From NCBI RefSeq assembly GCF_029626225.1, contig NZ_JARUBP010000001.1, forward strand, positions 5,952,001 to 6,016,000: a stretch of DNA of 64,000 bases. Reading direction: 5' to 3'. This document shows, one piece after another, positions 18,566 to 34,247 of this stretch. The DNA is from Asanoa sp. WMMD1127 (lineage in GTDB: Bacteria > Actinomycetota > Actinomycetes > Mycobacteriales > Micromonosporaceae). Within the stretch, counting starts at the first letter, position 1; every line of letters begins with the position of its first letter. A model generated the notes under the pieces. The model was not told where the DNA came from, did no database searches, and saw only the letters and a list, made by a program, of their open reading frames with translations. A program made the translations under genes and the position numbers.

Positions 18566-18864
18566 GCCGGCGGGAGCCCCAGCAGCGGCGCCACCTGGGT
18601 GAGGCGGAGCACCTGGGCGACGATCGGCTGCGGATCGCGGACGGTGAGCCGGGCCTGGCGATCGAGGGCGACGTTGCGGGCGTGGATCAACGCGCGTACG
18701 CCGCTGGAGTCGAGAAACGGCACCTCGGAGAGGTCGACGACCACGGGATCCGCCCCGGCCTCGATCGCCGAGACGATGGCGGCTTCGACGTCGAGGTGCG
18801 AGTCGAGGTCGACGTCGCCCGTCAGGTGGATCACGGTCCCGCGGTCGGGCTGCTCTCCGGTCAT
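18562..18864 (-). CDS. STAS-domain anti-sigma factor antagonist
   Basis: A single STAS domain of about 100 residues: TVIHLTGDVDLDSHLDVEAAI at the start and VVVDLSEVPFLDSSGVRALIHAR, where the Ser in DSSG is the usual phosphorylation site of RsbV/SpoIIAA proteins. Unphosphorylated forms sequester anti-sigma kinases and free the sigma factor. It overlaps the PP2C gene by four bases and lies 4 bases after smpB. ATG 18864 is preferred over GTG 18882, which would overlap smpB. Its kinase partner is not adjacent; the STAS-HATPase gene near 33 kb is one candidate. Confidence 0.85.
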   Translation of the reverse strand: MTGEQPDRGTVIHLTGDVDLDSHLDVEAAIVSAIEAGADPVVVDLSEVPFLDSSGVRALIHARNVALDRQARLTVRDPQPIVAQVLRLTQVAPLLGLPPA

Positions 18865-18868
18865 CGGG

Positions 18869-19369
18869 TCAGCGTAGGTCACGCCCGGCCGGTCGGCCCT
18901 TGAGCCGCCGCCCGAACTCCCGCGCGATCTCCCGGTTGGCGTCGCGCTCGGCCAGGACCTGCCGTTTGTCGAAGGACCGCCGGCCGCGGCCGATGCCCAG
19001 CTCGACCTTGGCCCAGCCGTTGTCGAAGTAGAGCGCCAGCGGCACGAGGGTCAGCCCCGGCTCGCGGATCTTCGCCAGGATGCGGTCGATCTCGACCCGG
19101 TGCAGGAGCAGCTTGCGGGTGCGCCGGGGTCCGTGTGGCGACCAGCCGGCCAGGCCGTACTCCGCGATGTGGAGGCCGTAGAGCAGCAGCTCGCCGTCGC
19201 GTTCCTGGGCGAATGCCTCGGCCAGCGAGGCGTGCCCCAGCCGCAGCGACTTGACCTCGGTGCCGAGCAGCACGAGCCCGGCCTCGTAGGTCTTGAGGAT
19301 CTCGTATTCGTGGCGGGCGCGCTTGTTGGTGGCGATCATCCGCCGCGGCGTCTCGCGCTCCCGGCTCAT
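18869..19369 (-). CDS. smpB: SsrA (tmRNA)-binding protein SmpB
   Basis: A 166-residue protein that carries tmRNA to stalled ribosomes for trans-translation. Family motifs are [42 protein letters not shown], here seen as contiguous blocks, then [45 protein letters not shown] and a basic C-terminal tail. Length matches the family (about 160). The ATG start 19369 is chosen over an upstream TTG. The tmRNA gene itself was not found nearby. Confidence 0.95.
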
Positions 19370-19844: not shown

Positions 19845-20048
19845 TCAGCGGCCTCGGCCGGTCTTGGCCTGCAGCTCCTCGATCAACTTGGCGGCATCGG
19901 CCTTGGTCAGCTCGGCCGGTGCCTCCTCGCCGGCCTCCCGCGCCAGCGTCTCGAGGTAGGACCGCTGCGCCGCGGTCGATGGCTCGTCGCCCGTGACCCA
20001 CTCGTCCGGGTCCTTGATAGCCGCATTGTCCGGGTTCTGATCGCTCAT
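19845..20048 (-). CDS. DUF3072-family small protein
   Basis: A 67-residue acidic protein with the DUF3072 pattern: KDPDEWVTGDEPSTAAQRSYLETLAREAGE and TKADAAKLIEELQAKTGRG. The second part resembles a short helix-extension-helix found in actinobacterial proteins. The role is unknown. ATG 20048 is divergent from the kelch lipoprotein gene. Confidence 0.85.
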   Translation of the reverse strand: MSDQNPDNAAIKDPDEWVTGDEPSTAAQRSYLETLAREAGEEAPAELTKADAAKLIEELQAKTGRGR

Positions 20049-20112
20049 GTGTTCGAACTACCCCGTCGACGGCGTCGCGAACCACCTGACGTTCTCGCGA
20101 CTCGTCACGATT

Positions 20113-21198
20113 ATGCGAAGCCTCGGCGCGGCCCTCGTCCTGCTCCTCGCCGGCTGCTCGACCGCGGCGCCGGCGCCGCCCACGATCGTCCCGTCCGGCG
20201 GCGCGACCGTGATGCGGCTCGCACGGGCCGCGCACACCGCCACCCCGCTGCCCGACGGCCGGGTGCTGCTGGTCGGCGGCTGCGCGACCGACGGCTGCGG
20301 CGGGACCACGGCCGAGTCGGAGATCTTCGCCGGCGGTCGGTTCGGCGCCGGGCCGCCGCTGGCCGAACCACGCTTCAACCACACGGCGACGGCGCTCGCC
20401 GACGGGCGGGTGCTGGTCGCCGGGGGCTTCCCGAGCGAGACCGCCGGGCCGAGCGGGACCGCGGAGATCTTCGCCGGCGGGCGCTTCGGTCCCGCCGTCC
20501 CGCTCACCGCGCCGCGGGCCAACCACACCGCGACCCGGTTGCGCGACGGCCGCGTCCTGTTGGCCGGCGGCGTCTCGGGCCGGTCCGCACTGGCGTCCGC
20601 GGAGGTGTTCGACGGCACCGGGTTCCGGGCGGTGGCGGCGATGCCGGACGCGCGCTCCCGGCACGGCGCCGCGCTGCTCGCCGATGGGCGTGTGCTGGTG
20701 GTCGGCGGCCAGGGCGGCACGGCGCACGGCGACCGGCTGCTGGACACGGCGCTGCTGTACGACCCGGCGCGGGACGTGTGGCAGGAGGTGCCGGGGCGCA
20801 TGCCGGCGCCGGCCTACAAGCTCGCCGTGGCCGCGCTGCCGGACGGCCGAGCGCTGGTGGTCGGCGGGCAGACCGCCGACGACCCGGCCGCCCGGCTGTC
20901 CACCACGCTGCTCTTCGACCCGCGGACCGGCGGGTTCACCGCGGGCGCGCGGATGGCGGAGCCGCGCTACAAGATCTCCGACGCGGTGGTCGCCCTGCCC
21001 GGCGGGCGGGTCGCGGTCGCGGGCGGCTTCGGTGTCGAGGTGTACGCCGAGGGCCGCTTCCGCCCGGCCGCGCAGGACACGGTGGAGCGCCAGTATCCGG
21101 CCGTCGCGGTGCTGCCCGGCGGCGCGCTCCTCGTCACCGGTGGCTACGACGACCGCACCCGGGTCACCGCGACGGCGCTGGTGGTCGACGTCGCCTGA
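20113..21198 (+). CDS. Kelch-repeat lipoprotein (beta-propeller)
   Basis: A 361-residue exported protein. ATG 20113 begins a short lipoprotein signal (RSLGAALVLLLAGC). Seven repeats of about 50 residues each carry a motif like DGRVLLVGG (HTATPLPDGRVLLVGG, HTATALADGRVLVAGG, HGAALLADGRVLVVGG and so on), the pattern of kelch or galactose-oxidase-like propellers. No copper-ligand set of galactose oxidase is apparent, so it is more likely a binding protein than an oxidase. It lies 79 bases upstream of the carbamoyltransferase gene on the same strand and could be co-transcribed with the heptose operon, though the gap is wide compared with the overlaps inside that operon. Confidence 0.8.
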   Translation: MRSLGAALVLLLAGCSTAAPAPPTIVPSGGATVMRLARAAHTATPLPDGRVLLVGGCATDGCGGTTAESEIFAGGRFGAGPPLAEPRFNHTATALADGRVLVAGGFPSETAGPSGTAEIFAGGRFGPAVPLTAPRANHTATRLRDGRVLLAGGVSGRSALASAEVFDGTGFRAVAAMPDARSRHGAALLADGRVLVVGGQGGTAHGDRLLDTALLYDPARDVWQEVPGRMPAPAYKLAVAALPDGRALVVGGQTADDPAARLSTTLLFDPRTGGFTAGARMAEPRYKISDAVVALPGGRVAVAGGFGVEVYAEGRFRPAAQDTVERQYPAVAVLPGGALLVTGGYDDRTRVTATALVVDVA

Positions 21199-21277: not shown

Positions 21278-22912
21278 ATGCGCGTACTCGGGATCAACGC
21301 CATCTTCCACGACCCGGCGGCGGCCCTGGTGGTCGACGGGCGGGTGGTCGCCGCGGCCGAGGAGGAGCGGTTCAGCCGGCGTAAGCACGGCAAGCGGCCG
21401 GTGCCGTTCGCCGCCTGGGAGCTGCCCGACCTCGCCGCCGCGTGGTGCCTGGAGGCGGGCGGGCTGCGGCCGGCGGACCTCGACGCGGTCGCCTACTCGT
21501 TCGACCCCTCCCTGTGCCGCGACGCCGCCGATCTCGGCCTCGCGGACCCGTGGGACTGGCTGCGCGTCGAGTACGCCAAGCGCGCCCCCCAGTTCCTCGC
21601 CAGCGCGCTGCCCGGCCTGGACCCGGCGAAGGTGCGGTTCGTGCCCCACCACGTCGCCCACGCCGCCTCGGCCGCGCTAGCGATGCCCCGCGACGGCGAT
21701 GCCGCCGTGCTCGTGCTCGACGGCCGGGGCGAGGTCGCCAGCCACCTGGCCGGCGTCTACCGCGGCGACGCGCTGACCCCACTGTTCACCCAGGAGCTGC
21801 CGCACTCGCTCGGCCTGCTCTACGAGGACCTCACGCGGCACCTCGGCTTCCTGCACTCCAGCGACGAGTACAAGGTCATGGCCCTGGCGTCGTACGGCAA
21901 ACCGCGCCACCTCGCCGCCTTCCGCGACCTGGTCCGCGCCGCCGACGGCGGCTTCACGGTCGCGCCCGTCGACTGGGCCGGCTTCGCGCCGCGCCGCACC
22001 GGTGACGCCGAGCTGTCCGAGGACCACGCCGACCTGGCATCCACCGTGCAGACCCGCCTGGAGGAGGTCATCCTCGACCTCGGCCGGTGGCTGCACGACG
22101 CGGCCGGCGGCCCGACCACGATCGCCCTGGCCGGCGGTGTCGCGCTCAACTGCGTCGCCAACGCCCGGCTGGCCCACGAGGGCCCCTACGAGCGGGTCTG
22201 GATCCAGCCCGCCGCCGGCGACTCGGGCACCGCGCTCGGGGCCGCGCTGCACGTGGCCACGACCGGCGCCGACCCGCTCCAGCCGATGCCCGGCGTCGAC
22301 CTCGGTCGCGGCTGGTCCGACGAGGAGATCGAGGCGGAGCTCCGCCGCGCCGCCCTGCCCTACGAGCGGCCGGACTCGATCGCCCACGCGGCCGCCCGCG
22401 TGCTGGCCGGCGACGGCGTGGTGGCCTGGTTCCAGGGCCGCAGCGAGTACGGACCCCGCGCGCTCGGCCACCGCTCGCTGCTGGCGCACCCGGGCCGGTC
22501 GGACACCACGGCGCGGATGAACGACATCAAGGGCCGCGAGCAGTTCCGCCCGATCGCGCCGATGGTGCGGGCCGAGCGGGCCGCCGAGGTGTTCGAGGGC
22601 GTGCTGCCCAGCCCCTACATGCTCTTCGTGCACGGCGTCCGTCCCCAGTGGCGCGACCGGATCCCGGCGGTGGTGCACGTCGACGGCACGGCCCGCGTGC
22701 AGACCGTCGACCCGGCCGACGAGCCGCTGGTGGCGGCGATGCTGGCCGAGTTCGACCGGCTCACCGGCATTCCGGTCGTGGTCAACACCTCGCTCAACAC
22801 GGCCGGGCGGCCGATGGTCGACACGCCGCGCGAGGCGATGGAGCTGTTCGGCAGCGCGCCGGTCGACCTGCTGGCGATCGGCCCGTTCGCGGTGCACCGG
22901 CGGCGCCTGTGA
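21278..22912 (+). CDS. Carbamoyltransferase, NodU/TobZ family
   Basis: A 544-residue enzyme that transfers carbamoyl from carbamoyl phosphate to a hydroxyl, usually of a sugar. The N-terminal Kae1-like domain begins GINAIFHDPAAALVVDG and contains the metal-binding motif HHVAHAASA and the adenylate pocket near LAGGVALNCVANAR. The C-terminal YrdC-like domain has GRSEYGPRALGHRSLLAHP, REQFRPIAPMV and VVVNTSLNTAGRPMV. All family hallmarks are present at full length. As the first gene of the heptose operon, it probably carbamoylates the sugar chain being built. Its TGA overlaps the GTG of the next gene (GTGA). Confidence 0.92.
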   Translation: MRVLGINAIFHDPAAALVVDGRVVAAAEEERFSRRKHGKRPVPFAAWELPDLAAAWCLEAGGLRPADLDAVAYSFDPSLCRDAADLGLADPWDWLRVEYAKRAPQFLASALPGLDPAKVRFVPHHVAHAASAALAMPRDGDAAVLVLDGRGEVASHLAGVYRGDALTPLFTQELPHSLGLLYEDLTRHLGFLHSSDEYKVMALASYGKPRHLAAFRDLVRAADGGFTVAPVDWAGFAPRRTGDAELSEDHADLASTVQTRLEEVILDLGRWLHDAAGGPTTIALAGGVALNCVANARLAHEGPYERVWIQPAAGDSGTALGAALHVATTGADPLQPMPGVDLGRGWSDEEIEAELRRAALPYERPDSIAHAAARVLAGDGVVAWFQGRSEYGPRALGHRSLLAHPGRSDTTARMNDIKGREQFRPIAPMVRAERAAEVFEGVLPSPYMLFVHGVRPQWRDRIPAVVHVDGTARVQTVDPADEPLVAAMLAEFDRLTGIPVVVNTSLNTAGRPMVDTPREAMELFGSAPVDLLAIGPFAVHRRRL

Positions 22913-23952
22913 TCAGCCTCGTCGTGCCGACGCTCGGCCGGCCGTCGCTGCGCGTGCTGCTGGACGCGCTCGCCGCGCAGATCGGCGCCGATCCCGTCGA
23001 GATCATCCTGGTCGACGACCGGGCCGACGGGGCCGCGCTGGAGACCGGCTTCCGGGTGCTGCGCGGCGGCGGGAACGGCCCGGCGGCCGCCCGCAACGTC
23101 GGCTGGCGGGCCGCGCGCGGCGACTGGGTGGTTTTCGTCGACGACGACGTTGTGCCCGATCCCGGCTGGTGGGCGCGGTTGCGGTCCGACCTGAAGGTTC
23201 CTGGCGACGTGGGCGGTGTGCAGGCCCGGGTGAGCGTGCCGCTGCCGGCCGACCGCCGCCCCACCGACTGGGAGCGCAACACCGCCGGCCTCGCCGACGC
23301 GCCGTGGATCACCGCCGACATGGCGTACCGCCGGGCCGCCCTGGCCGAGGTCGGCGGCTTCGACGAGCGCTTCCCCCGCGCGTTCCGTGAGGACGCCGAC
23401 CTGGCCTACCGCGTCCGCGCCGCCGGGTGGCGGCTGCGCCGGGGCGAGCGGAGCATCACCCACCCGGTGCGGCCCGCCGACCTGTGGGCCAGCGTGCGGG
23501 TGCAGGCCGGCAACGCCGACGACGCGCTGCTGCGTCGCCGCTACGGCGCAGACTGGCGGTCCCTGCTGGAGATTCCCCCCGGCCGGCGGCGGCGGCACGC
23601 GGTCGTCACCGGCGCCCTCGCGGTCGGCCTCGCCGCCGCGACCGCCGACCGGCTGCGCGGCGGAAGCGGGCCGCTGCGGGCCGTGGCCGCCGCGGGCGGG
23701 CTGGTCTGGGCGGTCGGCACCGCCGAGTTCGCCGCCCGGCGCGTCGCGGCCGGGCCGCGTACGCCCCGGGAGATCGCCGCCATGGCATTGACCAGTGTGG
23801 TCATCCCGCCGGTCGCGATCGGCCACTGGATCCGCGGTTGGATCCTGGCCGCGACCAGGGGAGAAGTCGTTGATGTTTACTTCTCTTCTCCCCGGGCAAG
23901 CGCTCCCGGTGACGGCAACCACTTCGATCAGTGCAGGTCAGAGGCTGTTTGA
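22909..23952 (+). CDS. Family 2 glycosyltransferase with C-terminal membrane segments
   Basis: A 347-residue GT-A-fold glycosyltransferase. It starts ISLVVPTLGRPSLRVLLDAL, has the nucleotide-binding IILVDDR and the DxD-like VVFVDDDVVPDPGWW, then the acceptor-side motif FREDADLAYRVRAAGWRL (ED catalytic base region). The last 100 residues contain two or three hydrophobic stretches (VTGALAVGLAAATADRL, AVAAAGGLVWAVGTA, ALTSVVIPPVAIGHWI), suggesting membrane attachment. It overlaps the carbamoyltransferase by four bases and the next gene by 80 bases. Confidence 0.87.
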   Translation: MISLVVPTLGRPSLRVLLDALAAQIGADPVEIILVDDRADGAALETGFRVLRGGGNGPAAARNVGWRAARGDWVVFVDDDVVPDPGWWARLRSDLKVPGDVGGVQARVSVPLPADRRPTDWERNTAGLADAPWITADMAYRRAALAEVGGFDERFPRAFREDADLAYRVRAAGWRLRRGERSITHPVRPADLWASVRVQAGNADDALLRRRYGADWRSLLEIPPGRRRRHAVVTGALAVGLAAATADRLRGGSGPLRAVAAAGGLVWAVGTAEFAARRVAAGPRTPREIAAMALTSVVIPPVAIGHWIRGWILAATRGEVVDVYFSSPRASAPGDGNHFDQCRSEAV

Positions 23953-25486
23953 CGCGGTCCTCTTCGACCGCGACGGCACTCTGGTCGAAGATGTGCCCTA
24001 CAACGGCTCGCCGGACAAGGTGCGCCCGATGCCGGGTGCCCGGGAGGCTGTCGACCGGGCCCGCGCCGCGAATCTCCGGGTAGGAGTGGTCAGCAACCAG
24101 TCGGGGCTGGCACGCGGTTTGTTCAGCGCTGCGGACCTCGCCCGGGTGAATGCCCGGGTGTCCGAACTGCTCGGGCCGTTCGACACCTGGCAGATCTGTC
24201 CACACGGGCCGGGCGACGGCTGCGCCTGCCGCAAGCCCGCGCCGGGTCTGGTCCGCGCTGCCGCCGCCGACCTCGGCACCGTGCCCGAGCGGTGCGCCGT
24301 GATCGGCGACATCGGCGCGGACGTCGCGGCGGCCGAGGCCGCCGGCGCGACGCCGGTGCTGGTGCCCACGCCCGTCACCCGGCCGGAAGAGGTGGCCGCC
24401 GCCCCGGTGGTGGCCGCGACCCTCGGCGAGGCGGTGTCCCACCTGCTCGAGCGGCAGGACCGGGTGGCGCCCGCCGCGCCGCGGCGGGGCGGCCGGGTGC
24501 TGGTCGTGCGCACCGACTCCGCCGGCGACATGCTGGTCACCGGCCCGGCCATCCGGGCCGTGGCCGCGGGCGCCGAGTCCGTCGTGCTCCTCTGCGGGAC
24601 CCGGGGCCAGGACTCGGCAGCGCTCCTGCCGGGCGTCGACGAGGTCGTCACCGCCGACCTGCCCTGGATCTCACCCGACCCCGCGCGCGTCGACCCGGGC
24701 GCGATGACCGGCCTGGTCGACCGGCTGGCCGCCCTGGCCGTCGACGAGGCGATCGTCTTCACCAGCTTCCACCAGTCCGCGCTGCCACTGGCCCTGCTGC
24801 TGCGGATGGCCGGCGTCGCCCGGGTCAGCGCGATCAGCGACGACTACCCGGGCAGCCTGCTCGACGTCCGGCACCGCGTGCCCTACGGCATCCCCGAGCC
24901 GGAACGGGCCCTGTCGCTCGCGGCCGCCGCTGGCTACGGACTGCCGGCCGACGACCAGCCGACGCTGCGGGTCGCGACGGGACCCCGCCCGGCGCGGCGG
25001 TCCTATGTGGTCGTCCACCCCGGCGCCTCCGCGCCCGCCCGCGCCTGTCCGCCCGACGTCTGCGCGGCCATCGTCGCCGCCCTCGCCGCGGCAGGCCGGC
25101 GGGTTTTGGTGACCGGTGGACCGGACGAGACCGACCTCACCGCGTACGTCGCCGCCAACCATGCCGTCGACCTCGGCGGCGCGCTGACCTGGGCCGAGCT
25201 GGCCGGCGTGCTGGCCGGCGCGGAGTGCCTCGTGGTCGGCAACACCGGCCCCGCCCACCTGGCGGCCGCGGTGGGCACGCCCGTGGTCAGCCTCTACGCG
25301 CCCACCGTGCGGTTCGGCGCCTGGGCGCCCTACCGCGTGCCCACCGTGCGGCTCGGCGATGCGGCGGCGCCGTGCCGGGACACCCGGGCGACCGCCTGCC
25401 CGGTGCCCGGCCACCCCTGCCTGTCCACACTCGACCCGGCCGCCGTCGCCGACGCGGTCCGCGTGCTCACCGGAGGTCCGGCGTGA
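23873..25486 (+). CDS. Fusion of D,D-heptose 1,7-bisphosphate phosphatase (GmhB-type HAD) and family 9 glycosyltransferase
   Basis: A 537-residue two-domain protein. Residues about 25-195 are a GmhB-like HAD phosphatase: AVLFDRDGTLVEDVPYNG (nucleophile Asp), VVSNQSGLARG, the zinc loop CPHGPGDGCACRKPAPG and VIGDIGADV. Residues about 205-537 form a GT9/heptosyltransferase domain: RVLVVRTDSAGDMLVTGPAI, VVVHPGASAPAR, VTGGPDETDL, VVGNTGPAHLAAAVGTPVVSLYAP. GmhB removes the C7 phosphate during ADP-heptose synthesis; GT9 enzymes transfer heptose from ADP-heptose. ATG 23873 has a strong ribosome site (GGGGAGAA) although it lies 80 bases inside the preceding gene. The 90 bases around the start are visibly less GC-rich than the flanks. 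Confidence 0.88.
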   Translation: MFTSLLPGQALPVTATTSISAGQRLFDAVLFDRDGTLVEDVPYNGSPDKVRPMPGAREAVDRARAANLRVGVVSNQSGLARGLFSAADLARVNARVSELLGPFDTWQICPHGPGDGCACRKPAPGLVRAAAADLGTVPERCAVIGDIGADVAAAEAAGATPVLVPTPVTRPEEVAAAPVVAATLGEAVSHLLERQDRVAPAAPRRGGRVLVVRTDSAGDMLVTGPAIRAVAAGAESVVLLCGTRGQDSAALLPGVDEVVTADLPWISPDPARVDPGAMTGLVDRLAALAVDEAIVFTSFHQSALPLALLLRMAGVARVSAISDDYPGSLLDVRHRVPYGIPEPERALSLAAAAGYGLPADDQPTLRVATGPRPARRSYVVVHPGASAPARACPPDVCAAIVAALAAAGRRVLVTGGPDETDLTAYVAANHAVDLGGALTWAELAGVLAGAECLVVGNTGPAHLAAAVGTPVVSLYAPTVRFGAWAPYRVPTVRLGDAAAPCRDTRATACPVPGHPCLSTLDPAAVADAVRVLTGGPA

Positions 25487-26445
25487 ACATCCTGGTCTGG
25501 CACGTGCACGGCTCCTGGATGACGGCGTTCGTCCAGGGCCGGCACCGCTACCTCGTCCCGGTCAACGCCGCCCGCGACCCGTGGGGCCTCGGCCGGGCCC
25601 GCACCTACGACTGGCCGTCGTCGGCGGTCGAGGTCACGCCGGAGGAGCTGGCGACGGCCGACATCGACGTGGTGATCGCGCAGCGGCCCGAGGAGATCGC
25701 CCTGGCCCGCCGGTGGACGGGCCGCCGGCTGCCGACCGTCTACGTCGAGCACAACACCCCCAAGGGCGACGTCCCGGCCACCAGGCACCCCGTGGCCGAC
25801 CGCGACGACCTGCTGCTGGTCCACGTGACCGGGTTCAACCAGCTGTTCTGGGACGCCGGTGGCACCCGCTCAACGGTGGTGGAGCACGGGATCGTGCCGC
25901 CTCTCGCGTCGTACGAGGGTGATCTGCCTCGGCTGGCCGTGGTGACCAACGAGCCGGTCCGGCGCTGGCGGGTGACCGGCACGGACCTGATGCCGCGGTT
26001 CGCCGACGTGGCGCCGCTGGACGTCTTCGGCATGGGCGTCGCCGGGCTGCCGGCGCGGCTCGGCCTGCCGCCGCAGCGGCTCACGCCGCACGAGGACGTG
26101 CCGCAGGGCGCGCTGCATCCGGCGGTCGCGCGCCGCCGTGCGTACCTGCATCTGTGCCGCTGGACCTCCCTGGGCCTGAGCCTCATCGAGGCGATGGCGA
26201 TGGGGATGCCGGTGGTGGTGCTGGCCAGCACCGAAGCGGTCGAGGCGGTGCCGTCCGGCGCGGGGGTCCTGTCCACCAAGGTCGACACGCTCGTCGAGGC
26301 GGCCCGTTGGCTGCTCGACGACCCGGCCGCCGCCGGGGAGCTCGGCGCCGCCGCTCGCAAGGCGGCCACCGCCCGCTACGGACTCGATCGGTTCCTGGCC
26401 GACTGGGACCACCTCTTGGAGGAGGAACGATGCGCATCGCGATGA
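25483..26445 (+). CDS. Glycosyltransferase (GT-B, family 4-like)
   Basis: A 320-residue putative glycosyltransferase. It begins MNILVWHVHGSWMTAFVQG and contains VYVEHNTPKGDVP, typical of a small actinobacterial GT-B group, plus the nucleotide-sugar site CRWTSLGLSLIEAMAMGMPVVVLA, a version of the GT4 E-x7-E motif (here one acid is replaced by Leu/Ser-rich residues). The GTG start overlaps the previous stop (GTGA), and its end overlaps the next gene by 16 bases. Donor and acceptor are unknown; operon position suggests ADP-heptose or another activated sugar. Confidence 0.8.
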   Translation: MNILVWHVHGSWMTAFVQGRHRYLVPVNAARDPWGLGRARTYDWPSSAVEVTPEELATADIDVVIAQRPEEIALARRWTGRRLPTVYVEHNTPKGDVPATRHPVADRDDLLLVHVTGFNQLFWDAGGTRSTVVEHGIVPPLASYEGDLPRLAVVTNEPVRRWRVTGTDLMPRFADVAPLDVFGMGVAGLPARLGLPPQRLTPHEDVPQGALHPAVARRRAYLHLCRWTSLGLSLIEAMAMGMPVVVLASTEAVEAVPSGAGVLSTKVDTLVEAARWLLDDPAAAGELGAAARKAATARYGLDRFLADWDHLLEEERCASR

Positions 26446-27611
26446 TCTCCGAACACGCCAGCCCGCTCGCGGCGCTCGGCGGCGAGGACGCCGGCGGCCA
26501 GAACACCCACGTCGCCGATCTGGCGTCGGCGCTGGCCGGGGAGGGACACGACGTGCGCGTCTACACGCGACGCGACGGCGACCTGCCCGAGTCCGTGCGG
26601 GTCCGCCCGGGCGTGACGGTGGTGCACGTGCCGGCCGGCCCGGCCGAGCCCATCCCGAAGGACACGATGTTGCCGCACATGGGCGCGTTCGGTGCCTGGC
26701 TGGCCGACGACTGGGCCCGCTGGCGGCCCGACGTGGCGCACGCCCACTTCTGGATGAGCGGGCTGGCCGCCCTGACCGCCCGGAAGCGCACCGGCGTGCC
26801 GGTCGCGCAGACCTACCACGCCCTCGGCACCGTCAAACGGCGGCATCAGGGCGACCGGGACACCAGCCCACCCGGCCGGATCGGCTTCGAACGCACGCTG
26901 GGTCGGCAGGCCGACGCGGTCGTCGCCCAGTGCCAGGACGAGGTCGACGAGCTGCTCCGGATGGGCGTGCCCCGCGCCACGATGAGCGTCATCCCGTCCG
27001 GAGTGGACAGTGAGCGGTTCACGCCCGACGGCCCGGTCGCACCGCGCACCGACCGGCCGCGGCTGCTCAGCATCGGGCGCCTCGTCGAGCGCAAGGGCGT
27101 GGCCGACGTGATCGCCGCGCTGCCCCGGATCGGCGACGCGGAGCTGGTCGTCGTCGGCGGCCCGCCCGTCGCCGAGCTCGACGCGGACCCGCTGGTGCGC
27201 GACCTGCGGGCGCAGGCCGTGCGGCTCGGCGTCGACGATCGGGTGCGGTTCGTCGGCGGGCAGTCCCGCGACGAGGTGCCCGCCTGGTACCGCTCGGCCG
27301 ACATCATGGTGACGACACCCTGGTACGAGCCGTTCGGGCTCACCCCGTTGGAAGCCATGGCCTGTGGCGTGCCGGTGGTGGCGGCCGAGGTCGGCGGGCT
27401 CACCGACACGGTGGTCGACGGCGTCACCGGCGACTTCGTGCCGCCCCGGGACCCCGCGGCCCTGGCCGACACCGTGCGGCGGCTGCTCGCCGACCCGATG
27501 CGCCGGGTCGCGTACGCCGCGGCCGCGCTCGACCGGGCCCGGATGTCCTACAGCTGGAAGCGGGTGGCCGCCCAGGTCGGCGTCCTCTACGACGGGCTGG
27601 TGGTCGCATGA
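26430..27611 (+). CDS. Family 4 glycosyltransferase
   Basis: A 393-residue GT-B enzyme. The N-terminal domain starts MRIAMISEHASPLAALGGEDAGGQ with an acceptor-side Gly/Glu loop, then HAHFWMSG and QTYHALGTVKRRHQG. The donor domain has LLSIGRLVERKGVADVI and the E-x7-E motif TPWYEPFGLTPLEAMACGVPVVA, both diagnostic of retaining GT4 enzymes related to sucrose-synthase/MshA-like proteins. ATG 26430 has a textbook ribosome site (GGAGGAAC) inside the end of the previous gene. It overlaps gmhA by four bases. Confidence 0.9.
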   Translation: MRIAMISEHASPLAALGGEDAGGQNTHVADLASALAGEGHDVRVYTRRDGDLPESVRVRPGVTVVHVPAGPAEPIPKDTMLPHMGAFGAWLADDWARWRPDVAHAHFWMSGLAALTARKRTGVPVAQTYHALGTVKRRHQGDRDTSPPGRIGFERTLGRQADAVVAQCQDEVDELLRMGVPRATMSVIPSGVDSERFTPDGPVAPRTDRPRLLSIGRLVERKGVADVIAALPRIGDAELVVVGGPPVAELDADPLVRDLRAQAVRLGVDDRVRFVGGQSRDEVPAWYRSADIMVTTPWYEPFGLTPLEAMACGVPVVAAEVGGLTDTVVDGVTGDFVPPRDPAALADTVRRLLADPMRRVAYAAAALDRARMSYSWKRVAAQVGVLYDGLVVA

Positions 27612-28186
27612 CCAGCCTGGTCGACACCCACCTGAGCGGGCTCGCCGGGGCCCTGCCGGCGTTCGCCCGCGAGGCCGCCAAGCTGGCCCGCTGGGGGGCC
27701 GAGCTCGCGCACACGCTGTCCGGCGGCGGCCGGCTGCTGGTCGCGGGCAACGGTGGCAGCGCCGCCGAGGCCCAGCACCTGACCGCCGAGCTGGTCGGCA
27801 AGTTGCGCGACGACCGCACGCCGCTGTCGGCGATCGCGCTGTCGGCGGAGACCTCGTCGCTGACCGCGATCAGCAACGACTTCGGCTACGACACCGTGTT
27901 CGCCCGGCAGGTGCGGGCCCACGGCCGTCCCGACGACGTGCTCCTGCTGCTGTCCACGAGCGGTGCCAGCGCCAACCTGCTCGAGGCCGCGGCCGCCGGC
28001 CGGGACGCCGGGCTGCGCACCTGGGCGATGACCGGCCCGGCGCCGAACCCGCTCGCCGACGCGTGCAAGGAGGCGCTCGCGGTGCCGGCGCCGGACAGCC
28101 AGGTCGTCCAGGAGCTGCACCTGGTCTCGGTGCACCTGCTCTGCGAGTACGTGGACCTCGCCCTGGCCGGCGGGAGCGCGCGGTGA
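27608..28186 (+). CDS. gmhA: Sedoheptulose 7-phosphate isomerase
   Basis: A 192-residue SIS-domain protein that converts sedoheptulose 7-phosphate into D-glycero-D-manno-heptose 7-phosphate, the first committed step of ADP-heptose synthesis. It contains LLVAGNGGSAAEAQHLTAELVGK (substrate and zinc-binding region), ISNDFGYDTVFARQV, LLLLSTSGASANLLEA and the C-terminal ELHLVSVHLLCEYVD with the catalytic His/Glu region. Length and motifs match GmhA. It is joined by ATGA/GTGA overlaps to the GT4 gene before it and the kinase gene after it. Confidence 0.92.
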   Translation: MTSLVDTHLSGLAGALPAFAREAAKLARWGAELAHTLSGGGRLLVAGNGGSAAEAQHLTAELVGKLRDDRTPLSAIALSAETSSLTAISNDFGYDTVFARQVRAHGRPDDVLLLLSTSGASANLLEAAAAGRDAGLRTWAMTGPAPNPLADACKEALAVPAPDSQVVQELHLVSVHLLCEYVDLALAGGSAR

Positions 28187-29562
28187 CGGCGCACGTGGTG
28201 GTCGTCGGCGACGTGCTGCTCGACCGCGACGTCGACGGCACCACCACGCGACTGGTCCCGGACGGCCCGGGCGCCCCGGTGCTCGACGAGACGTCCTCGG
28301 TGGAGCGGGCCGGCGGGGCCGGGCTGGCGGCGTCGTTCGCGGCCGCCTCCGGCGCCCGGGTCAGCCTGGTCACCGCGCTCGCCGACGACGAGGCCGGCGC
28401 CCGGCTGGCCGGCCTGTTGACCGGCCTGGGCATCGAGCTGTTCCCGCTGCCGGTGACCGGCGGGACGACGGTGGAGAAGATCCGGCTGCGGGCCGGCGGA
28501 CGGACCCTGCTGCGGCTGGACCGCGGTGGCGGCGCCACGCCGGCGGACCCGCCGGACGCCGTCACGGACCTCGTCGCCGGCGCCGACGCGGTGCTGGTGA
28601 GCTGCTACGGCAACGGTTTGCTCCGGGTGCCCGGGCTGCGCCACGCGCTCGCCGGCGCCGGGGGACCGGTCGTCTGGGACCCGCATCCCCGCGGGCCGAT
28701 CGCCGTGCCGGGTGTCGCCCTGGCCACGCCCAACGAGGGCGAGCTGCGGGCGCTGACCGGCGACGACGGCGGCGGCCGGCGGTTGGCCGCCGCGACCCGC
28801 GGCGCGCAGCGACTGCGCCAGCACTGGCGGGCCTCCGCGGTGGCCGTCACGCTCGGTGCGGACGGCGCGCTGCTGTCCCATGCGGCGGCCGCTCCGCTGG
28901 TGCTGCCGCCGCCGCACGGGCTCGTGCCTCCCCCTGGCGCGGACCCGTGCGGCGCCGGCGACCGGTTCGCGGCCACCGCGGCCATCGCCCTGGCCGACGG
29001 CGCGTTGACCTCCGAGGCGGTGGCCGCGGCGGTCACCGAGGCCTCGCGGTACGTCGCCGAGGGTGGCGCCGCCACCCGGCGGCCGCGCGCGGAACCGCAC
29101 GACGTGGTCGCGCACACGCGGGCCGCCGGCGGCACCGTGGTGGCCACCGGCGGCTGCTTCGACCTGCTGCACGCCGGCCACATCGCCACGCTGGAGGCGG
29201 CCCGCCGGCTCGGGGACTGCCTCGTCGTCTGCCTCAACTCCGACGCCAGCGTGGCCGGGCTCAAGGGCCCCGGCCGCCCACTGACGCCGCAGGCGGACCG
29301 CGAGCGGGTGCTGCGCGGATTGTCCTGTGTGGACGACGTCGTCGTGTTCGACGAGTCGACACCGGAAGCGGTGCTGTCCTGGCTGCGCCCCGACGTCTGG
29401 GTCAAGGGCGGCGACTACACGGGCGCCGAGCTGCCCGAGTCGGCCCTCGTGGAGCGGTGGGGCGGCCAGACCGTGGTCGTGCCCTACCTCGGCGGTCGGT
29501 CCACGACCGCCACCATCGCCGCCGTCCGCGACGGCGGTCGCCAACTGGAAGGAGCATCATGA
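28183..29562 (+). CDS. hldE: Bifunctional D-beta-D-heptose 7-phosphate kinase/1-phosphate adenylyltransferase
   Basis: A 459-residue two-domain enzyme. Residues 1-305 are a PfkB/ribokinase-type kinase: VVVGDVLLDRDVDG, ERAGGAGLAASFAAASGA, ATPNEGELRALTG and the anion-hole motif DPCGAGDRFAATAAIAL. Residues about 320-459 are a nucleotidyltransferase: ATGGCFDLLHAGHIATLEAAR (HxGH), VCLNSDASVAGLKGPGRPL, VKGGDYTGAELPE. The kinase makes heptose 1,7-bisphosphate and the second domain attaches AMP after GmhB acts. E. coli HldE is 477 residues with the same order. Start GTG 28183 overlaps gmhA by four bases. Confidence 0.92.
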   Translation: MTAHVVVVGDVLLDRDVDGTTTRLVPDGPGAPVLDETSSVERAGGAGLAASFAAASGARVSLVTALADDEAGARLAGLLTGLGIELFPLPVTGGTTVEKIRLRAGGRTLLRLDRGGGATPADPPDAVTDLVAGADAVLVSCYGNGLLRVPGLRHALAGAGGPVVWDPHPRGPIAVPGVALATPNEGELRALTGDDGGGRRLAAATRGAQRLRQHWRASAVAVTLGADGALLSHAAAAPLVLPPPHGLVPPPGADPCGAGDRFAATAAIALADGALTSEAVAAAVTEASRYVAEGGAATRRPRAEPHDVVAHTRAAGGTVVATGGCFDLLHAGHIATLEAARRLGDCLVVCLNSDASVAGLKGPGRPLTPQADRERVLRGLSCVDDVVVFDESTPEAVLSWLRPDVWVKGGDYTGAELPESALVERWGGQTVVVPYLGGRSTTATIAAVRDGGRQLEGAS

Positions 29563-30257
29563 CGATCGACCCCTCCACCGGACGGGCGGTGCTGGTCACC
29601 GGCGGCGCCAGCGGACTCGGTGCGGCCGTGGTCGACGCGGTGGCCAAGGCCGGCGGCCGGCCCTTCGTGCTCGACCGGCAGCCCTCCGCGGCCGGAGTGC
29701 CCTGGGTCGAGTGCGACCTGGCCGACACCCGCGCCGCCGAGCGCGCCACCGTCACGCTGGCCGAGCAGGCCGGCGGCCTCGACGGTGTGGTCACCGCGGC
29801 GGGCACGGATCTCCCCGGTCGGCTCTCCGACATCCCCGGTGACCGGTGGGACATGGTGGTCACCGTCGACCTGCTGGCCACCGCCGCGGTCGTGCGGGCG
29901 GCGCTGCCCTACCTCGAACGGTCGCACGGCACGGTCGTCACCGTGGCCTCGACGCTGGGCCTCAAGGCGGTCAGCGACGCGACCGCCTACTGCGCGGCCA
30001 AGTTCGGCGTCGTGGGCTTCACCCGCGCGCTGGCGGCGGAGACGGCCGGCCAGATCGGCGTGACGCTGCTCATCCCCGGCGGCATGCGGACCGCGTTCTT
30101 CGACGGGCGGACCGAGCAGTACAAGCCCGGCCCGGACGCGGTGCTCAACGACCCGGCCCAGGTCGCCGCGGCGGTGCTGTTCGCCCTCGAACAGCCGCCC
30201 GGAAGCGCGATCCGGGAGATGGTTGTCTGCGCCGAGCAGGAGTCGTCCTACCCGTGA
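29559..30257 (+). CDS. Classical short-chain dehydrogenase in the heptose operon
   Basis: A 232-residue SDR with AVLVTGGASGLGAAVVDAV (cofactor site), WVECDLADT, catalytic Ser in TVASTLGL and the YCAAKFG motif (Tyr-x-x-x-Lys), followed by IPGGMRTAFFD. It is the short classical type and not the extended type to which the ADP-heptose 6-epimerase HldD (about 310 residues) belongs, so it is not simply that enzyme. It could oxidise or reduce a nucleotide-linked or glycan sugar. ATGA overlaps join it to hldE before and GTGA to the GT9 gene after; ATG 29559 has the ribosome site GAAGGAG. Confidence 0.85.
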   Translation: MTIDPSTGRAVLVTGGASGLGAAVVDAVAKAGGRPFVLDRQPSAAGVPWVECDLADTRAAERATVTLAEQAGGLDGVVTAAGTDLPGRLSDIPGDRWDMVVTVDLLATAAVVRAALPYLERSHGTVVTVASTLGLKAVSDATAYCAAKFGVVGFTRALAAETAGQIGVTLLIPGGMRTAFFDGRTEQYKPGPDAVLNDPAQVAAAVLFALEQPPGSAIREMVVCAEQESSYP

Positions 30258-31186
30258 TCCTCGTGCTGCGGGCGCTCGGCCTCGGCGACCTGGCGACCGC
30301 CGTGCCGGCCCTGCGGGGCCTGCGGGCCGCGTTCCCGGGCGAGGAGATCGCGCTCGCCGCGCCCGGCTGGCTGGCGCCGCTGGTGCCGCTGACGGGCGCG
30401 GTCGACCGGCACATCGCTGTGCCCGGCTTGAACCTGCCACAGTGGACGCTGCCGGAGCGGCCGGCGCTGTCGGTCAACCTGCACGGCCGTGGCCCGCAGT
30501 CGCACCGGCTGCTGGCCGTGGCCGGCGCGCCCCGCATGTGGGCGTGGGCGCTGCCGGGCGAGGATGGTCCCCTGTGGACGGCCGACGAGCACGAGGTCGA
30601 CCGCTGGTGCCGGCTGCTGCGGGAGCACCGCGTCGAGACCGACCGGGACGACCTCGACCTGCTGCCGCCGCCCACCGCCGGGCCGCCCGGGCTGACCATC
30701 GTCCACCCGGGCGCGAAGGCGGCGGCCCGCCGGTGGCCCGTCGACCGCTTCGCCGCGGTCGCCCGTGAGCTGACGGCCCGCGGCCACACGGTCGTGGTGA
30801 CCGGTTCGGCCGTCGAGCGGGGACTGGCGGAACGCGTGGCGGCCGGAGCGGGGCTGCCGCGGTCGGCGGTGCTGGCCGGCGACACCGACGTGGGCGACCT
30901 GGCGGCGCTGGTGTGCGGCGCGCGGCTGGTGGTCGCGGGGGACACCGGGATCGGTCACCTGGCGACCGCGTACCGGATCCCGTCGGTCCTGCTTTTCGGT
31001 CCGGTCGCGCCGCGGTTGTGGGGGCCGCCCGCCGACCGGCCCTGGCACCGGGCGCTGCATCCGCCGGCCACCGGCGATCCGGTGGACGGCGTCGACCCGC
31101 GCCTGGCCGCGGTCAGCGTGGCCGACGTGGTGCGGGCGGCCGAGCTGGCGCTGACGTGCGCACCTGACCGCCCAGTCCGGCGATGA
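30254..31186 (+). CDS. Family 9 glycosyltransferase (heptosyltransferase-like)
   Basis: A 310-residue GT9-type protein: VLRALGLGDLATAVPALRGLRAAFP is the classical heptosyltransferase start, LTIVHPGAKAAARRWP the donor-phosphate region, VVVTGSAVERGLAERV follows, and VVAGDTGIGHLATAYRIPSVLLFGP the C-terminal signature. It is the second GT9 domain of the operon; the first is fused to the HAD phosphatase. The operon therefore probably adds at least two heptoses. Its last 74 bases overlap, on the opposite strand, the end of the sigma-factor gene. Confidence 0.88.
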   Translation: MILVLRALGLGDLATAVPALRGLRAAFPGEEIALAAPGWLAPLVPLTGAVDRHIAVPGLNLPQWTLPERPALSVNLHGRGPQSHRLLAVAGAPRMWAWALPGEDGPLWTADEHEVDRWCRLLREHRVETDRDDLDLLPPPTAGPPGLTIVHPGAKAAARRWPVDRFAAVARELTARGHTVVVTGSAVERGLAERVAAGAGLPRSAVLAGDTDVGDLAALVCGARLVVAGDTGIGHLATAYRIPSVLLFGPVAPRLWGPPADRPWHRALHPPATGDPVDGVDPRLAAVSVADVVRAAELALTCAPDRPVRR

Positions 31187-32288
31187 CCAGCGACCGGGCC
31201 ACGGTGCGGCCCGGGTTGACCAGCACGAGCCGGACGCCGCGCCGCCACGCGAGCCGGTAGGCGTCGGCCAGTGCGCCGATCGCCGCCGCGTCGACGAACG
31301 GCACGTGCCGCAGGTCGACGGCCACGCCGGCCCGGGCGTTGCGGCAACAGAAGACGAGGGTGGGCCGCAGCTCGTCGACGTTGTCGTGGTCGATCTCGCC
31401 GCGGACAGCGATCCGGGCCACACCGCGGTCGTTGCTGACCGCGATCTCCAGGGTCCGCTCGTCGGGACCCTCGTCTCCCATGCCGGGGTAGGGGGCCGCG
31501 GTGTCCGTCAGCAGGCCCGCCCGCAGCCACTCCAGCGTGCGGGACAGCAACCGGGAGACGTGCATCTGCGAGATCCCCGTCGCGGCGGCGATCTCGGCCT
31601 GGCTCCGGTTGCCGTAGAACCGCAGCGCGAGGATCTCGCGTTCCCGCGCGGGCAACCGGGTGATCAGGCCGCGGACCGTCTGGACGTCGTCGACCTTCGC
31701 CAGATCGCGGTCCGGGGCGCCGATCAGGTCGCCGACCTCCTCTGACTGCTCGCCGGCGTCCTCGCTGGCGGCCGGGCGGTTGAGGGACCGGGCGCGGTAG
31801 GCCTGCCGGGCCTGCAGCGCCAGTTCGAGCTCGTCGGCCGGCACGTTCAGGCGCTCGCAGAGCTCCGACCGGGTCGGTTCGCGGGACAGCTCGTACGTCA
31901 GCTCCTCGATCGCGCGCGAGGTCTCCAGCATCAGCTCCTGGACGCCGCGCGGCACATGGGTGTCCCAGCAGGCGTCGCGGAAATAGCGGCGCAGCTCGCC
32001 GCGGACGGTGGTGGCGGCGTAGCCGGTGAAGGACCCGCGGTCCGGAGCCACGCCGTTGACGGCCTTGACCATCCCCAGCCGGGCGACCTGGCGCAGGTCG
32101 TCGATCGGCTCACCACGATGGGCGAACGAGCGGGCGAGCCGGTCGGCCATCGGCAGGGCCTGTTGCCACAGCAGCTCCTGCCGCTGGGCGACGTCCTGGC
32201 CGGTGCGCCGGGCCTCGGCGTACTCGCGCGCGATCGCGTCGAGCGGTGCTTCGGGGCCGGCTCCTTGTGTCAAGGGCATCTTGGGCAT
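31113..32288 (-). CDS. SigB/SigF-type sigma factor fused to a C-terminal STAS domain
   Basis: A 391-residue protein. Residues 1-265 are a group 3 sigma-70 factor: region 2 (MADRLARSFAHRGEPIDDLRQVARLGMVKAV, RYFRDACWDTHVPR), region 3 (LTYELSREPTRSELCERL) and region 4 with helix-turn-helix REREILALRFYGNRSQAEIAAATGISQMHVSRLLSRTL. Residues about 280-375 are a STAS domain (ARIAVRGEIDHDNVDELRP, VAVDLRHVPFVDAAAIGALADAYRLA) with Asp-Ala-Ala at the usual phospho-Ser site. STAS domains normally occur in separate anti-anti-sigma proteins. ATG 32288 chosen; ATG 32279 is in frame. The 3' end overlaps the convergent GT9 gene by 74 bases. Confidence 0.88.
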   Translation of the reverse strand: MPKMPLTQGAGPEAPLDAIAREYAEARRTGQDVAQRQELLWQQALPMADRLARSFAHRGEPIDDLRQVARLGMVKAVNGVAPDRGSFTGYAATTVRGELRRYFRDACWDTHVPRGVQELMLETSRAIEELTYELSREPTRSELCERLNVPADELELALQARQAYRARSLNRPAASEDAGEQSEEVGDLIGAPDRDLAKVDDVQTVRGLITRLPAREREILALRFYGNRSQAEIAAATGISQMHVSRLLSRTLEWLRAGLLTDTAAPYPGMGDEGPDERTLEIAVSNDRGVARIAVRGEIDHDNVDELRPTLVFCCRNARAGVAVDLRHVPFVDAAAIGALADAYRLAWRRGVRLVLVNPGRTVARSLVIAGLGGQVRTSAPARPPAPRRPR

Positions 32289-32342: not shown

Positions 32343-33080
32343 TCACACCCGCAGGACCGCCCAGACGACCTTGCCGGCGTCCGTGGACAGCCAGCCCCAG
32401 CGGTGGCTGAGCGCTTCCACCAGGCCCAGGCCACGCCCGGGACCGCCGTCGTCGTGTGCGGGCATCGGCAGCCGTTCGGGCAGGCCGGCGCCGCCGTCCT
32501 CGACCGCGAGCAGGAGCCAGCGCCCGCGATGTGACAGTCGCAATGTCATGGTGGTGTCGGCGTGCCGGGTGGCATTGCTGATGAGCTCCGTCGCCACCGC
32601 GCACGCGGGACCGACCACGCCGGCGAATCCCCAGCTGAGGCAGCTTTCCGTGATCACCGCGCGGGCGTGTCGGGCGGCGCCGCGGATCGGGGGCAGAATC
32701 TCGCGTACGGTCGGTTGCGCCTCACCCTGGTCGATCGACTCGAGCGCCGCCGCCACCGTCGGACGCACCGGGACGGCGCGGGAAAATCCCAGCCGGTCGA
32801 GGTCGGTCAGGACGTCCCGCCGTGACTCGACGACCACGAACGGCACCGCCGGCCAGATGCTCGCCTGCCGCGCCACGGCCGACAGGACGGTCAGACACCC
32901 TCGCTCGGCCACCTCGATGCGGGTGAGGTCGAGGATCACGGCACTGGGCTGGTCGACGAGGCACTTGTGCAGCGTCGAGCGCAGCGCGCTGGACGTGCCC
33001 GCGCTCAGCGTCCCGTCCGCCGTGACGACGGACGCGCGTTCGTCGGACTCGACGGCGAACCGCAGCTGACTTTCCCGCAT
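32343..33080 (-). CDS. STAS-HATPase fusion (anti-sigma antagonist plus RsbW-like kinase)
   Basis: A 245-residue protein with an N-terminal STAS-like domain (about 8-105: ASVVTADGTLSAGTSSALRSTL, AVILDLTRIEVAERGCLTVLSA) and a C-terminal histidine-kinase-like ATPase domain (about 115-245: ATELISNATRHADTTM with the N-box Asn, LLLAVEDGGAGLPE as G1 box, GRGLGLVEALSHRWGW as G2 box). RsbW-type ATPases phosphorylate STAS proteins and hold sigma factors. Here both folds are in one chain. It lies 54 bases upstream of the sigma-STAS gene on the same strand, so it is a likely regulator of that sigma factor. ATG 33080 is the natural start. Confidence 0.85.
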   Translation of the reverse strand: MRESQLRFAVESDERASVVTADGTLSAGTSSALRSTLHKCLVDQPSAVILDLTRIEVAERGCLTVLSAVARQASIWPAVPFVVVESRRDVLTDLDRLGFSRAVPVRPTVAAALESIDQGEAQPTVREILPPIRGAARHARAVITESCLSWGFAGVVGPACAVATELISNATRHADTTMTLRLSHRGRWLLLAVEDGGAGLPERLPMPAHDDGGPGRGLGLVEALSHRWGWLSTDAGKVVWAVLRV

Positions 33081-33166: not shown

Positions 33167-34207
33167 GTGACGCCACATGTGATCGTCGCCGGCGCCTCGG
33201 CCGGAGGCGTCGAGGCGCTGCGGGCCATGGTTGCCGGGTTGCCGGCCGACCTGCCGGCCGCGGTGCTGATCGTCCTGCACGTTCCGCGCACCTCGCCGAG
33301 CGCGCTGCCGGCGATCCTGAGCCGGGCCGGCAAGCTGCCGGCGCACACCGCGCGCGACGGCGAGACGCTGGAGCACGGACACATCTACGTCGCCCCGGCC
33401 GACCATCACCTGCTCGTGCTCGACCACCGCCTGCGGCTGTCCCGCGGACCGTCCGAGAACGGCCACCGCCCGGCCATCGACCCGCTCTTCCGGTCGGCCG
33501 CTCGGGCCCTCGGCCCACGGGTGGTCGGCGTCGTGCTGTCCGGCGCGCGCGACGACGGGGCCGCGGGCCTCGGGACGATCGCGCAGCGCGGCGGCCAGTG
33601 CGTGGTCCAGGAGCCCGACGACGCGCTCCACGCGTCCATGCCACGGGCCGCGATGGAGCGCGTGCGGGTCGACGCGGTCGCCTCCGCCGCCGCCATGGGC
33701 GAGGTGCTGACCAAGATGGTGAAGGCCGCCGCGGAGCGGCTCACCGCCGGGGACGATGAGTCCCGACCCCTGCTCGACGGAGAGATTGCCATGTCGGAGC
33801 TCGCCGACCTGACCAGTGAGGATCTGGCCCTCGAACCAGCCGGTTACGGATGTCCGTCGTGCGGGGGATCGCTGTTCGAGATCAGCGACCAGCCGGTGCC
33901 GCGCTACCGCTGCCGGGTGGGGCACGCCTGGTCGCCGCAGAGCCTGCTCGACGAGCAGGCCGTCGCGCTCGAGGGAGCGCTCTGGATGGCGCTGCGGGCC
34001 CTGGAGGACAAGGCCTCGCTGAGCCGGCGGATGGCCGAGAGCGGCCGCCGCCGCCACGTCGGCACCGAGGCCCAATACACGTCGAGCGCGGACGAGGCCG
34101 ACCGGGCCGCCTCGCTGATCCGCGACCTGATCGGACGGATCGGCTCGACCGCCACCGAGGAGGCGGCGATCGTACCTGGGCTGATGCCGGGCGACCGCGA
34201 CGAGTAA
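33167..34207 (+). CDS. CheB-type methylesterase domain without receiver, with C-terminal zinc ribbon
   Basis: A 346-residue protein. Residues 1-185 match the CheB catalytic domain: VIVAGASAGGVEAL (Ser11), IVLHVPRTSPS (His38), APADHHLLV and VVLSGARDDGAAGL (Asp130) form the expected triad. There is no receiver domain. From about residue 225 a Cys pattern, GCPSCGGSLFE followed by YRCRVGHAWSP, suggests a zinc ribbon. Such proteins are found next to CheR in actinobacteria without flagellar chemotaxis and probably act on a non-classical methylated sensor. GTG 33167 is chosen. The next gene encodes the matching CheR. Confidence 0.87.
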   Translation: MTPHVIVAGASAGGVEALRAMVAGLPADLPAAVLIVLHVPRTSPSALPAILSRAGKLPAHTARDGETLEHGHIYVAPADHHLLVLDHRLRLSRGPSENGHRPAIDPLFRSAARALGPRVVGVVLSGARDDGAAGLGTIAQRGGQCVVQEPDDALHASMPRAAMERVRVDAVASAAAMGEVLTKMVKAAAERLTAGDDESRPLLDGEIAMSELADLTSEDLALEPAGYGCPSCGGSLFEISDQPVPRYRCRVGHAWSPQSLLDEQAVALEGALWMALRALEDKASLSRRMAESGRRRHVGTEAQYTSSADEADRAASLIRDLIGRIGSTATEEAAIVPGLMPGDRDE

Positions 34208-34247
34208 CGTCAACCGGGCGAAGTCACCATCGACGACGAAGGCGCCC

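Follow-up and report, generated by a model that had tools for sequence, protein, structure and literature searches.

A nine-gene cassette of Asanoa sp. WMMD1127 as a probable variant of the actinobacterial cwg core with a predicted heptose nucleotide pathway

We analysed a 64,000-nucleotide stretch of the genome of Asanoa sp. WMMD1127 (Micromonosporaceae; contig NZ_JARUBP010000001.1, positions 5,952,001 to 6,016,000 of the forward strand), in the following called the window, with the focus on a cassette of nine genes at positions 21278-31186. The cassette is probably a Micromonosporaceae variant of the core of the actinobacterial cwg operon, i.e. a nucleoside diphosphate (NDP)-heptose pathway that feeds the synthesis of a short carbamoylated heptosyl glycan of the cell envelope.

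The cwg operon, which Hong et al. reportedly named in 2002, has been known since that year as a target of the envelope-stress response of Streptomyces. The available sections of a paper that prints the SCO6179 promoter (PMC6767563) describe it as a 12-gene operon that is predicted to serve cell wall glycan synthesis, is partly sigmaE-dependent, is induced by vancomycin and belongs to the envelope-stress regulon of S. coelicolor. In the available part of a paper on ArgR (PMC5839063) the operon spans SCO6179-6190, where cwgH carries the annotation phosphoheptose isomerase and cwgI that of a bifunctional synthase/transferase. As far as the accessible text goes, papers from 2018 and 2019 term the role in cell wall glycan synthesis tentative or predicted, and a paper from 2026 lists cwg with cell-wall genes without giving a product. 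Within the searched literature, to the extent that its text was available, nothing but the cwgH annotation in PMC5839063 linked cwg to heptose: words starting with "heptose" (which excludes "phosphoheptose") occurred 0 times in PMC6767563, PMC5839063 and PMC13011467. No chemistry of the cwg product was found in the one open-access library searched; subscription papers were beyond the search, and a fuller link may well be published.

Among 392 Streptomyces genomes the exact published SCO6179 promoter was present in a single one (G740), which we infer to be S. coelicolor or a near twin of it. The 12 genes downstream of the promoter encode a cwgA-type epimerase/dehydratase, a carbamoyltransferase, a GT2 glycosyltransferase (GT), GmhB, a GT9, a GT1-type enzyme, a GT4, GmhA, HldE, a second GT9 and finally two further GT2s. 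When cwg is read from this genome (locus L124, genes 13 down to 05), the order of cwgB to cwgJ is identical in the window at 52-70% identity: 70% for the carbamoyltransferase cwgB, 53% for the GT2 cwgC, 65% for the GmhB cwgD, 56% for the GT9 cwgE, 62% for the GT1-type cwgF, 58% for the GT4 cwgG, 65% for the GmhA cwgH, 52% for the HldE cwgI and 56% for the GT9 cwgJ. A first-pass annotation of the window had made no link to cwg, which the operon core matches gene for gene. In gene content the window differs from cwg in three respects. The counterparts of cwgD and cwgE are joined in one protein while they are separate genes in G740, a short-chain dehydrogenase/reductase (SDR) gene is placed between the counterparts of cwgI and cwgJ, and cwgA, cwgK and cwgL are not at the locus. 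Because of the three missing genes and the additional SDR we consider the cassette a variant with the cwg core rather than the same operon.

All nine open reading frames (ORFs) are intact, lie on the + strand and overlap with the next one (Table 1). The overlaps are GTGA at four junctions, ATGA at two, 16 bases at one and 80 bases at one. The fully overlapping nine-gene run described in the first-pass annotation was thus reproduced at 8 of 8 junctions, and its encoded domains (GmhA, GmhB, HldE, two GT9, three other GTs, carbamoyltransferase and SDR) were recovered with Pfam and NCBIfam, while its count of five GTGA overlaps had to be corrected to four. In the rest of the window overlaps are found in 7 of 30 same-strand neighbour pairs of the ORF list; overlap at every junction is unusual, yet normal for a tight operon. 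The 80-base overlap hinges on ATG 23873 as start of gene 3, for which other in-frame starts exist at 23795, 23870 and 23909. The starts from the automated ORF call, GTG 23993 for gene 3 and GTG 29628 for gene 8, were discarded because they would remove the motifs DRDGT and TGGASGLG, respectively.

Table 1. Genes of the cassette, with positions in the window
Gene and predicted product	Position	Strand	Evidence
gene 1: NodU/TobZ-type O-carbamoyltransferase, cwgB counterpart	21278..22912	+	Pfam Carbam_trans_N 2.8e-48, Carbam_trans_C 3.7e-64
gene 2: GT2 glycosyltransferase, cwgC counterpart	22909..23952	+	Pfam Glycos_transf_2 8.6e-18; DDD motif
gene 3: GmhB-GT9 fusion, cwgD + cwgE counterpart	23873..25486	+	Pfam HAD phosphatase + Glyco_transf_9
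gene 4: GT-B (group 1) glycosyltransferase, cwgF counterpart	25483..26445	+	Pfam Glycos_transf_1 6.2e-9
gene 5: MshA-like GT4 glycosyltransferase, cwgG counterpart	26430..27611	+	Pfam Glyco_transf_4 + Glycos_transf_1
gene 6: GmhA, sedoheptulose 7-phosphate isomerase, cwgH counterpart	27608..28186	+	Pfam SIS_2; TIGR00441 3.3e-47
gene 7: two-domain HldE, heptose 7-phosphate kinase / heptose 1-phosphate nucleotidyltransferase, cwgI counterpart	28183..29562	+	Pfam PfkB + CTP_transf_like
gene 8: classical SDR, 232 aa, without counterpart in G740 cwg	29559..30257	+	Pfam adh_short 1.7e-34
gene 9: GT9 heptosyltransferase-type enzyme, cwgJ counterpart	30254..31186	+	Pfam Glyco_transf_9 3.7e-23

GmhA, HldE and GmhB together yield NDP-heptose in established heptose biochemistry. 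In the window GmhA contains the motifs GNGGSAAEAQHLTAE and QELH, has 1tk9 as solved relative (2.1e-38) and scores 160.4 bits with TIGR00441 (cut-off 209.45), its best NCBIfam match being GmhA by name. HldE contains GAGDRF, GCFDLLHAGH, KGGDY and GRSTT and has 5x9q (8.8e-37) and 4e84 (6.8e-15) as solved relatives. Its nucleotidyltransferase domain reaches 177.5 bits with TIGR02199 against a cut-off of 181.5, the nearest miss among the equivalogs listed, and its kinase domain 110.7 bits with TIGR02198 against a cut-off of 345. In gene 3 the GmhB domain (about residues 27-190) and the GT9 domain (about residues 208-530) form one protein with the solved relatives 3l8h and 4pnh. The GmhB domain carries DRDGT and a CPHGPGDGCAC loop with the same Cys/His pattern as in the solved 3l8h. 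NCBIfam places this HAD domain near GmhB and histidinol phosphatase: TIGR01656 exceeded its domain cut-off (108.5 against 84.15 bits), and PRK08942 (108.4 against 178) and TIGR00213 (54.4 against 149.6) remained below theirs. We take the roles of all these motifs to be those familiar from the respective enzymes. To our knowledge few pathways besides that of glycero-manno-heptose employ an isomerase, a kinase, a phosphatase and a nucleotidyltransferase together. Judged by homology and catalytic motifs, the three proteins are the predicted NDP-glycero-manno-heptose gene set, such that the heptose pathway that the first-pass annotation had proposed for a Gram-positive organism gains support in a Gram-positive family.

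Which nucleotide is attached is less certain. Synthetases that make NDP-heptose in actinobacteria and in further kingdoms were reportedly described by Tang in 2022 (Sci China Life Sci) and 2024 (Science). According to the available text of two commentaries (PMC11461863, PMC11573728), Arg at the fifth place of the motif (F/L)XXGXSTT is the mark of those heptose nucleotidyltransferases which accept CTP and UTP as well. The corresponding motif of the window HldE is YLGGRSTT, which has Arg at the fifth place (R5) and Tyr instead of Phe or Leu at the first, so the match is inexact. The isomerase, kinase and nucleotidyltransferase modules as well as R5 are common to the window and the actinobacterial synthetases. 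In loci L001-L040, parsed by script and with the window's own copy counted twice, 31 HldE matches were 55% identical or more, and their fifth residue was R in 29, H in 1 and T in 1. The 81 HldE matches in the named loci (see below) had R in 24, H in 52, S in 2 and none in 3, and 14 weaker matches had R in 6, H in 6 and none in 2. ADP-heptose is a likely, though not exclusive, product of the window HldE: since the enzyme carries a residue tied to CDP- and UDP-heptose synthesis, ADP-heptose alone is not secure. The first-pass proposal that ADP-D-glycero-D-manno-heptose is made and used therefore stands with respect to a nucleotide-activated heptose and its use by GT9 enzymes, but not with respect to ADP as the only nucleotide.

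The remaining proteins are predicted to transfer and modify sugars. Gene 9 has WaaF (1psw, 1.6e-15) as solved relative. Both GT9 domains contain an N-terminal GD and a C-terminal [DN]TGxxH (GDLATAVP and DTGIGH in gene 9, GDMLVTGP and NTGPAH in gene 3), as in the GT9 signature that we presume from WaaC structures, i.e. a catalytic Asp past the N-terminal glycine turn and a C-terminal [DN][TS]GxxH donor motif. Gene 4 weakly resembles the phosphatidylinositol-monomannoside mannosyltransferase 3okc (4.1e-4). Gene 5 is related to 6kih (1.1e-61) and the MshA-type 3c48 (7.6e-53) and scores 240.7 bits with TIGR03449 for MshA (cut-off 462.5). The carbamoyltransferase has the motifs HHVAH and DGRG and the solved relatives 7xb6 (4.3e-87) and TobZ (3ver, 4.8e-77). 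The SDR contains TGGASGLG and YCAAK and is 53-83% identical to 19 other locus copies; a role as HldD-type epimerase was unsupported, as it is a classical SDR by both Pfam and NCBIfam. A search of two Streptomyces genomes, G740 and G300, gave no match to the SDR at E <= 1e-25, and the 734-base ORF-free stretch between cwgI and cwgJ of G740 contained no remnant of it.

These genes suggest the following route. GmhA, HldE and GmhB would supply NDP-heptose, two GT9 enzymes would add heptose to an acceptor at the cytoplasmic side, and the GT2, GT1-type and GT4 enzymes may attach other sugars to it. The carbamoyltransferase would cap one sugar, perhaps a heptose by analogy with WapO of Pseudomonas, and the SDR may oxidise, reduce or epimerise one sugar. 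Pfam found no flippase, polymerase or ligase among the nine genes, and in a crude hydropathy scan all nine proteins lacked a strong membrane segment (19-residue maximum 1.35-1.93). This points to a short glycan that would be synthesised at the inner face, with export through proteins encoded outside the cassette.

The arrangement is widespread. HldE relatives occur in 218 of 300 Micromonosporaceae genomes (E <= 1e-30, a count that covers the Asanoa genome itself and kinase-only matches) and, at E <= 1e-60, in 38 of 197 genomes of the class. We compared named loci, the best 80 of 157 by HldE, with genes on cut contigs scored as misses. The order GT9a-GT4-GmhA-HldE is kept in 77 of the 80, from nine actinobacterial families, and the longer order GmhB-GT9a-GT1x-GT4-GmhA-HldE in 62. 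Of these 80 loci, 43 have GmhB fused to a GT2 (41 Geodermatophilaceae, 2 Nocardioidaceae), 28 have it as a separate protein and one, from Micromonosporaceae, has it fused to a GT9; in 6 it falls outside the called ORFs, and 2 gave no hit. The GmhB-GT9 fusion recurs in four further family loci (L125, L126, L127 and L129). Such swaps of the GmhB partner amid a fixed gene order argue that the activation of heptose and the transfer of sugars belong to a single pathway. Fusions also affect HldE, a didomain protein in the window: in Frankia sp. QA3 (L113:9176-11380) GmhA and HldE are joined in a 734-aa ORF, a tridomain arrangement like that of the heptose nucleotide synthetases in the accessible parts of the commentaries. 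The first-pass annotation had proposed to look for the nine-gene order in relatives. It is complete and in order in L125 and L127 of the Micromonosporaceae; in Streptomyces G740 genes 2-10 follow the same order without the SDR and with cwgD and cwgE separate. In L041 of Virgisporangium ochraceum (L128 is the same contig) GT1x is not there, and in L126 and L129 the carbamoyltransferase and the GT2 are not within 16 kb. In a quick tree the window HldE groups with Micromonosporaceae copies (6 rows, long branches; support of 100 in the Shimodaira-Hasegawa-like approximate likelihood ratio test, SH-aLRT).

Two observations concern single loci. Genome G049 has two paralogous heptose cassettes (L125 and L126) about 177 kb apart, and many genomes of its genus have two to four HldE matches. 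The HldE of L080, titled "Bacillus sp. AZ43" (an unverified organism), groups inside Blastococcus, such that the organism name is probably wrong.

Several points weigh against a cwg-like envelope glycan pathway. Product and acceptor are predictions, the cassette holds no export gene, and the SDR has no assigned step. The lack of strong membrane segments leaves room for a soluble product. All NCBIfam equivalogs among the matches listed (the best 25 for three of the nine proteins) score below their cut-offs, such that the substrates could be shifted. None of five congeners has the cassette, and the best HldE matches there are weak (E of 3.4e-8 to 1.4e-5); the cassette is thus dispensable. Finally, no sigmaE-type promoter (AAC-N15-18-CGTC) is present within the 350 bases upstream of the cassette that the search covered, where a site further upstream, before a preceding Kelch gene, is possible. 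Six other stretches gave no match either and only the G740 stretch, which was included by choice, did; since two of the six come from the Streptomyces cwg locus L053, this promoter test is weak.

That the product is a small molecule with heptose similar to septacidin, soluble or secreted, instead of an envelope glycan is rather unlikely. The nine proteins look cytosolic in the hydropathy scan, the five congeners do without the cassette, and the carbamoyltransferases of TobZ, novobiocin and GdmN type, which presumably act in antibiotic pathways, are near solved relatives of gene 1. Septacidin itself, in the available text of PMC11461863 and PMC11573728, is a heptose natural product of Streptomyces. 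Against this, Pfam found no polyketide synthase, nonribosomal peptide synthetase or nucleoside synthase domain within the cassette, its Streptomyces counterpart belongs to an envelope-stress regulon, and gene order and HldE are conserved as widely as described above. Since the core is found in nine actinobacterial families or more, an envelope glycan is more likely than a natural product particular to one strain; of the first-pass suggestion of a carbamoylated heptose glycan or a natural product, the first half is thereby favoured, and carbamoylated heptose has a precedent in WapO. A role in defence was not indicated either, as the four of the nine proteins that were tried had no PADLOC match.

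That the enzymes use a related yet different sugar, such as a modified heptose, or a hexose that GT9-like enzymes accept, is unlikely. All names come from homology, and the equivalog scores are in part far below the cut-offs, as for the HldE kinase domain and GmhA. The additional SDR would also fit such a sugar, and R5 of HldE suggests other nucleotides. It is the joint presence of isomerase, kinase, phosphatase and nucleotidyltransferase with intact motifs beside two GT9s that speaks for heptose. An accessory island, newly gained or being lost in the species and of little present function, would agree with the absence from all five congeners and with sister genome G005, in which the two flanking genes sit on different contigs and are followed by other genes, none of them from the cassette, but is very improbable because nine intact ORFs with catalytic motifs and an HldE that groups with Micromonosporaceae copies do not look like a decaying foreign fragment.

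We also considered whether the SDR replaces cwgA, an idea that was dropped after a whole-genome control. Among 62 loci with enough flank none had both an SDR and a cwgA-like gene, while 36 had only the cwgA-like gene, 24 only the SDR and 2 neither (Fisher p 3e-15). On the HldE tree, with rows that have neither gene counted, the SDR label required 4 changes, compared with 12 for the cwgA-like label. However, all four SDR-bearing genomes searched hold a cwgA relative of 58-59% identity elsewhere; the one of 59% in the genome studied here lies about 4 Mb from the cassette. Relatives of 58-60% are also found in the five congeners without the cassette, which makes the cwgA relative a general gene. 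The exclusion at the locus is thus a pattern of location and lineage. An assignment of the cwgA-like gene as HldD was unsupported.

A further system for comparison is the inner core of lipopolysaccharide (LPS). The window shares with its genes (gmhA, hldE, gmhB, waaC/waaF) and WapO four activities by homology, two GT9 domains and a carbamoyltransferase. It differs in that the host is Gram-positive without LPS and the scores are below family cut-offs, and WapO is likened by function, not by sequence. In Pseudomonas cores, WapO (PA5005) carbamoylates heptose at O-7 of HepII according to the accessible sections of PMC8005017 and PMC7168646. Genes for an HldD-type epimerase, 3-deoxy-D-manno-octulosonic acid (Kdo) or lipid A were not among the nine cassette genes, to which the search for them was confined. 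We tentatively suggest, with somewhat less than even confidence, that the cwg product is an inner-core-like oligosaccharide, namely a carbamoylated glycan of two or three heptosyl units attached to a lipid or to the wall, and that CDP- or UDP-heptose may be among the heptose nucleotides used for it. Many actinobacterial families would share it as part of their envelope, with the GmhB fusion partner varying by family.

Several other genes were noted around the cassette. The Kelch-repeat protein at 20047-21198 (+), 79 bases upstream, has a 78% identical relative in the cassette-free congener G005. At 31113-32288 (-) a SigB/SigF-type sigma factor and a C-terminal STAS (anti-anti-sigma) domain form one protein, which has at least one match across both domains in 6 of 6 genus genomes. 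The adjoining gene at 32343-33080 (-) joins a STAS to an anti-sigma-type HATPase domain, giving a partner-switching module with fused parts. On the opposite side of the cassette, a SpoIIE-type phosphatase and a STAS protein at 17381-18882 (-) probably belong to the same type of signalling. A CheB methylesterase and a CheR with PAS domains follow at 33179-36110 (+). A tRNA-Gly call at 31775-31844 was judged false, as it lies within a coding gene and has no Rfam match.

Heptose nucleotide enzymes in actinobacteria and the activation of ALPK1 by heptose nucleotides are already published; in the text available, the commentaries (PMC11461863, PMC11573728) are about heptose nucleotides in relation to immunity and do not settle other roles. 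With cwg read as a pathway for NDP-heptose and carbamoyl-heptosyl units, its product can be tested directly in S. coelicolor. If this reading is true, some Gram-positive soil bacteria would have a counterpart of the LPS inner core for which their heptose nucleotides are made, and this would bear on antibiotic tolerance, phage receptors and sensing by ALPK1.

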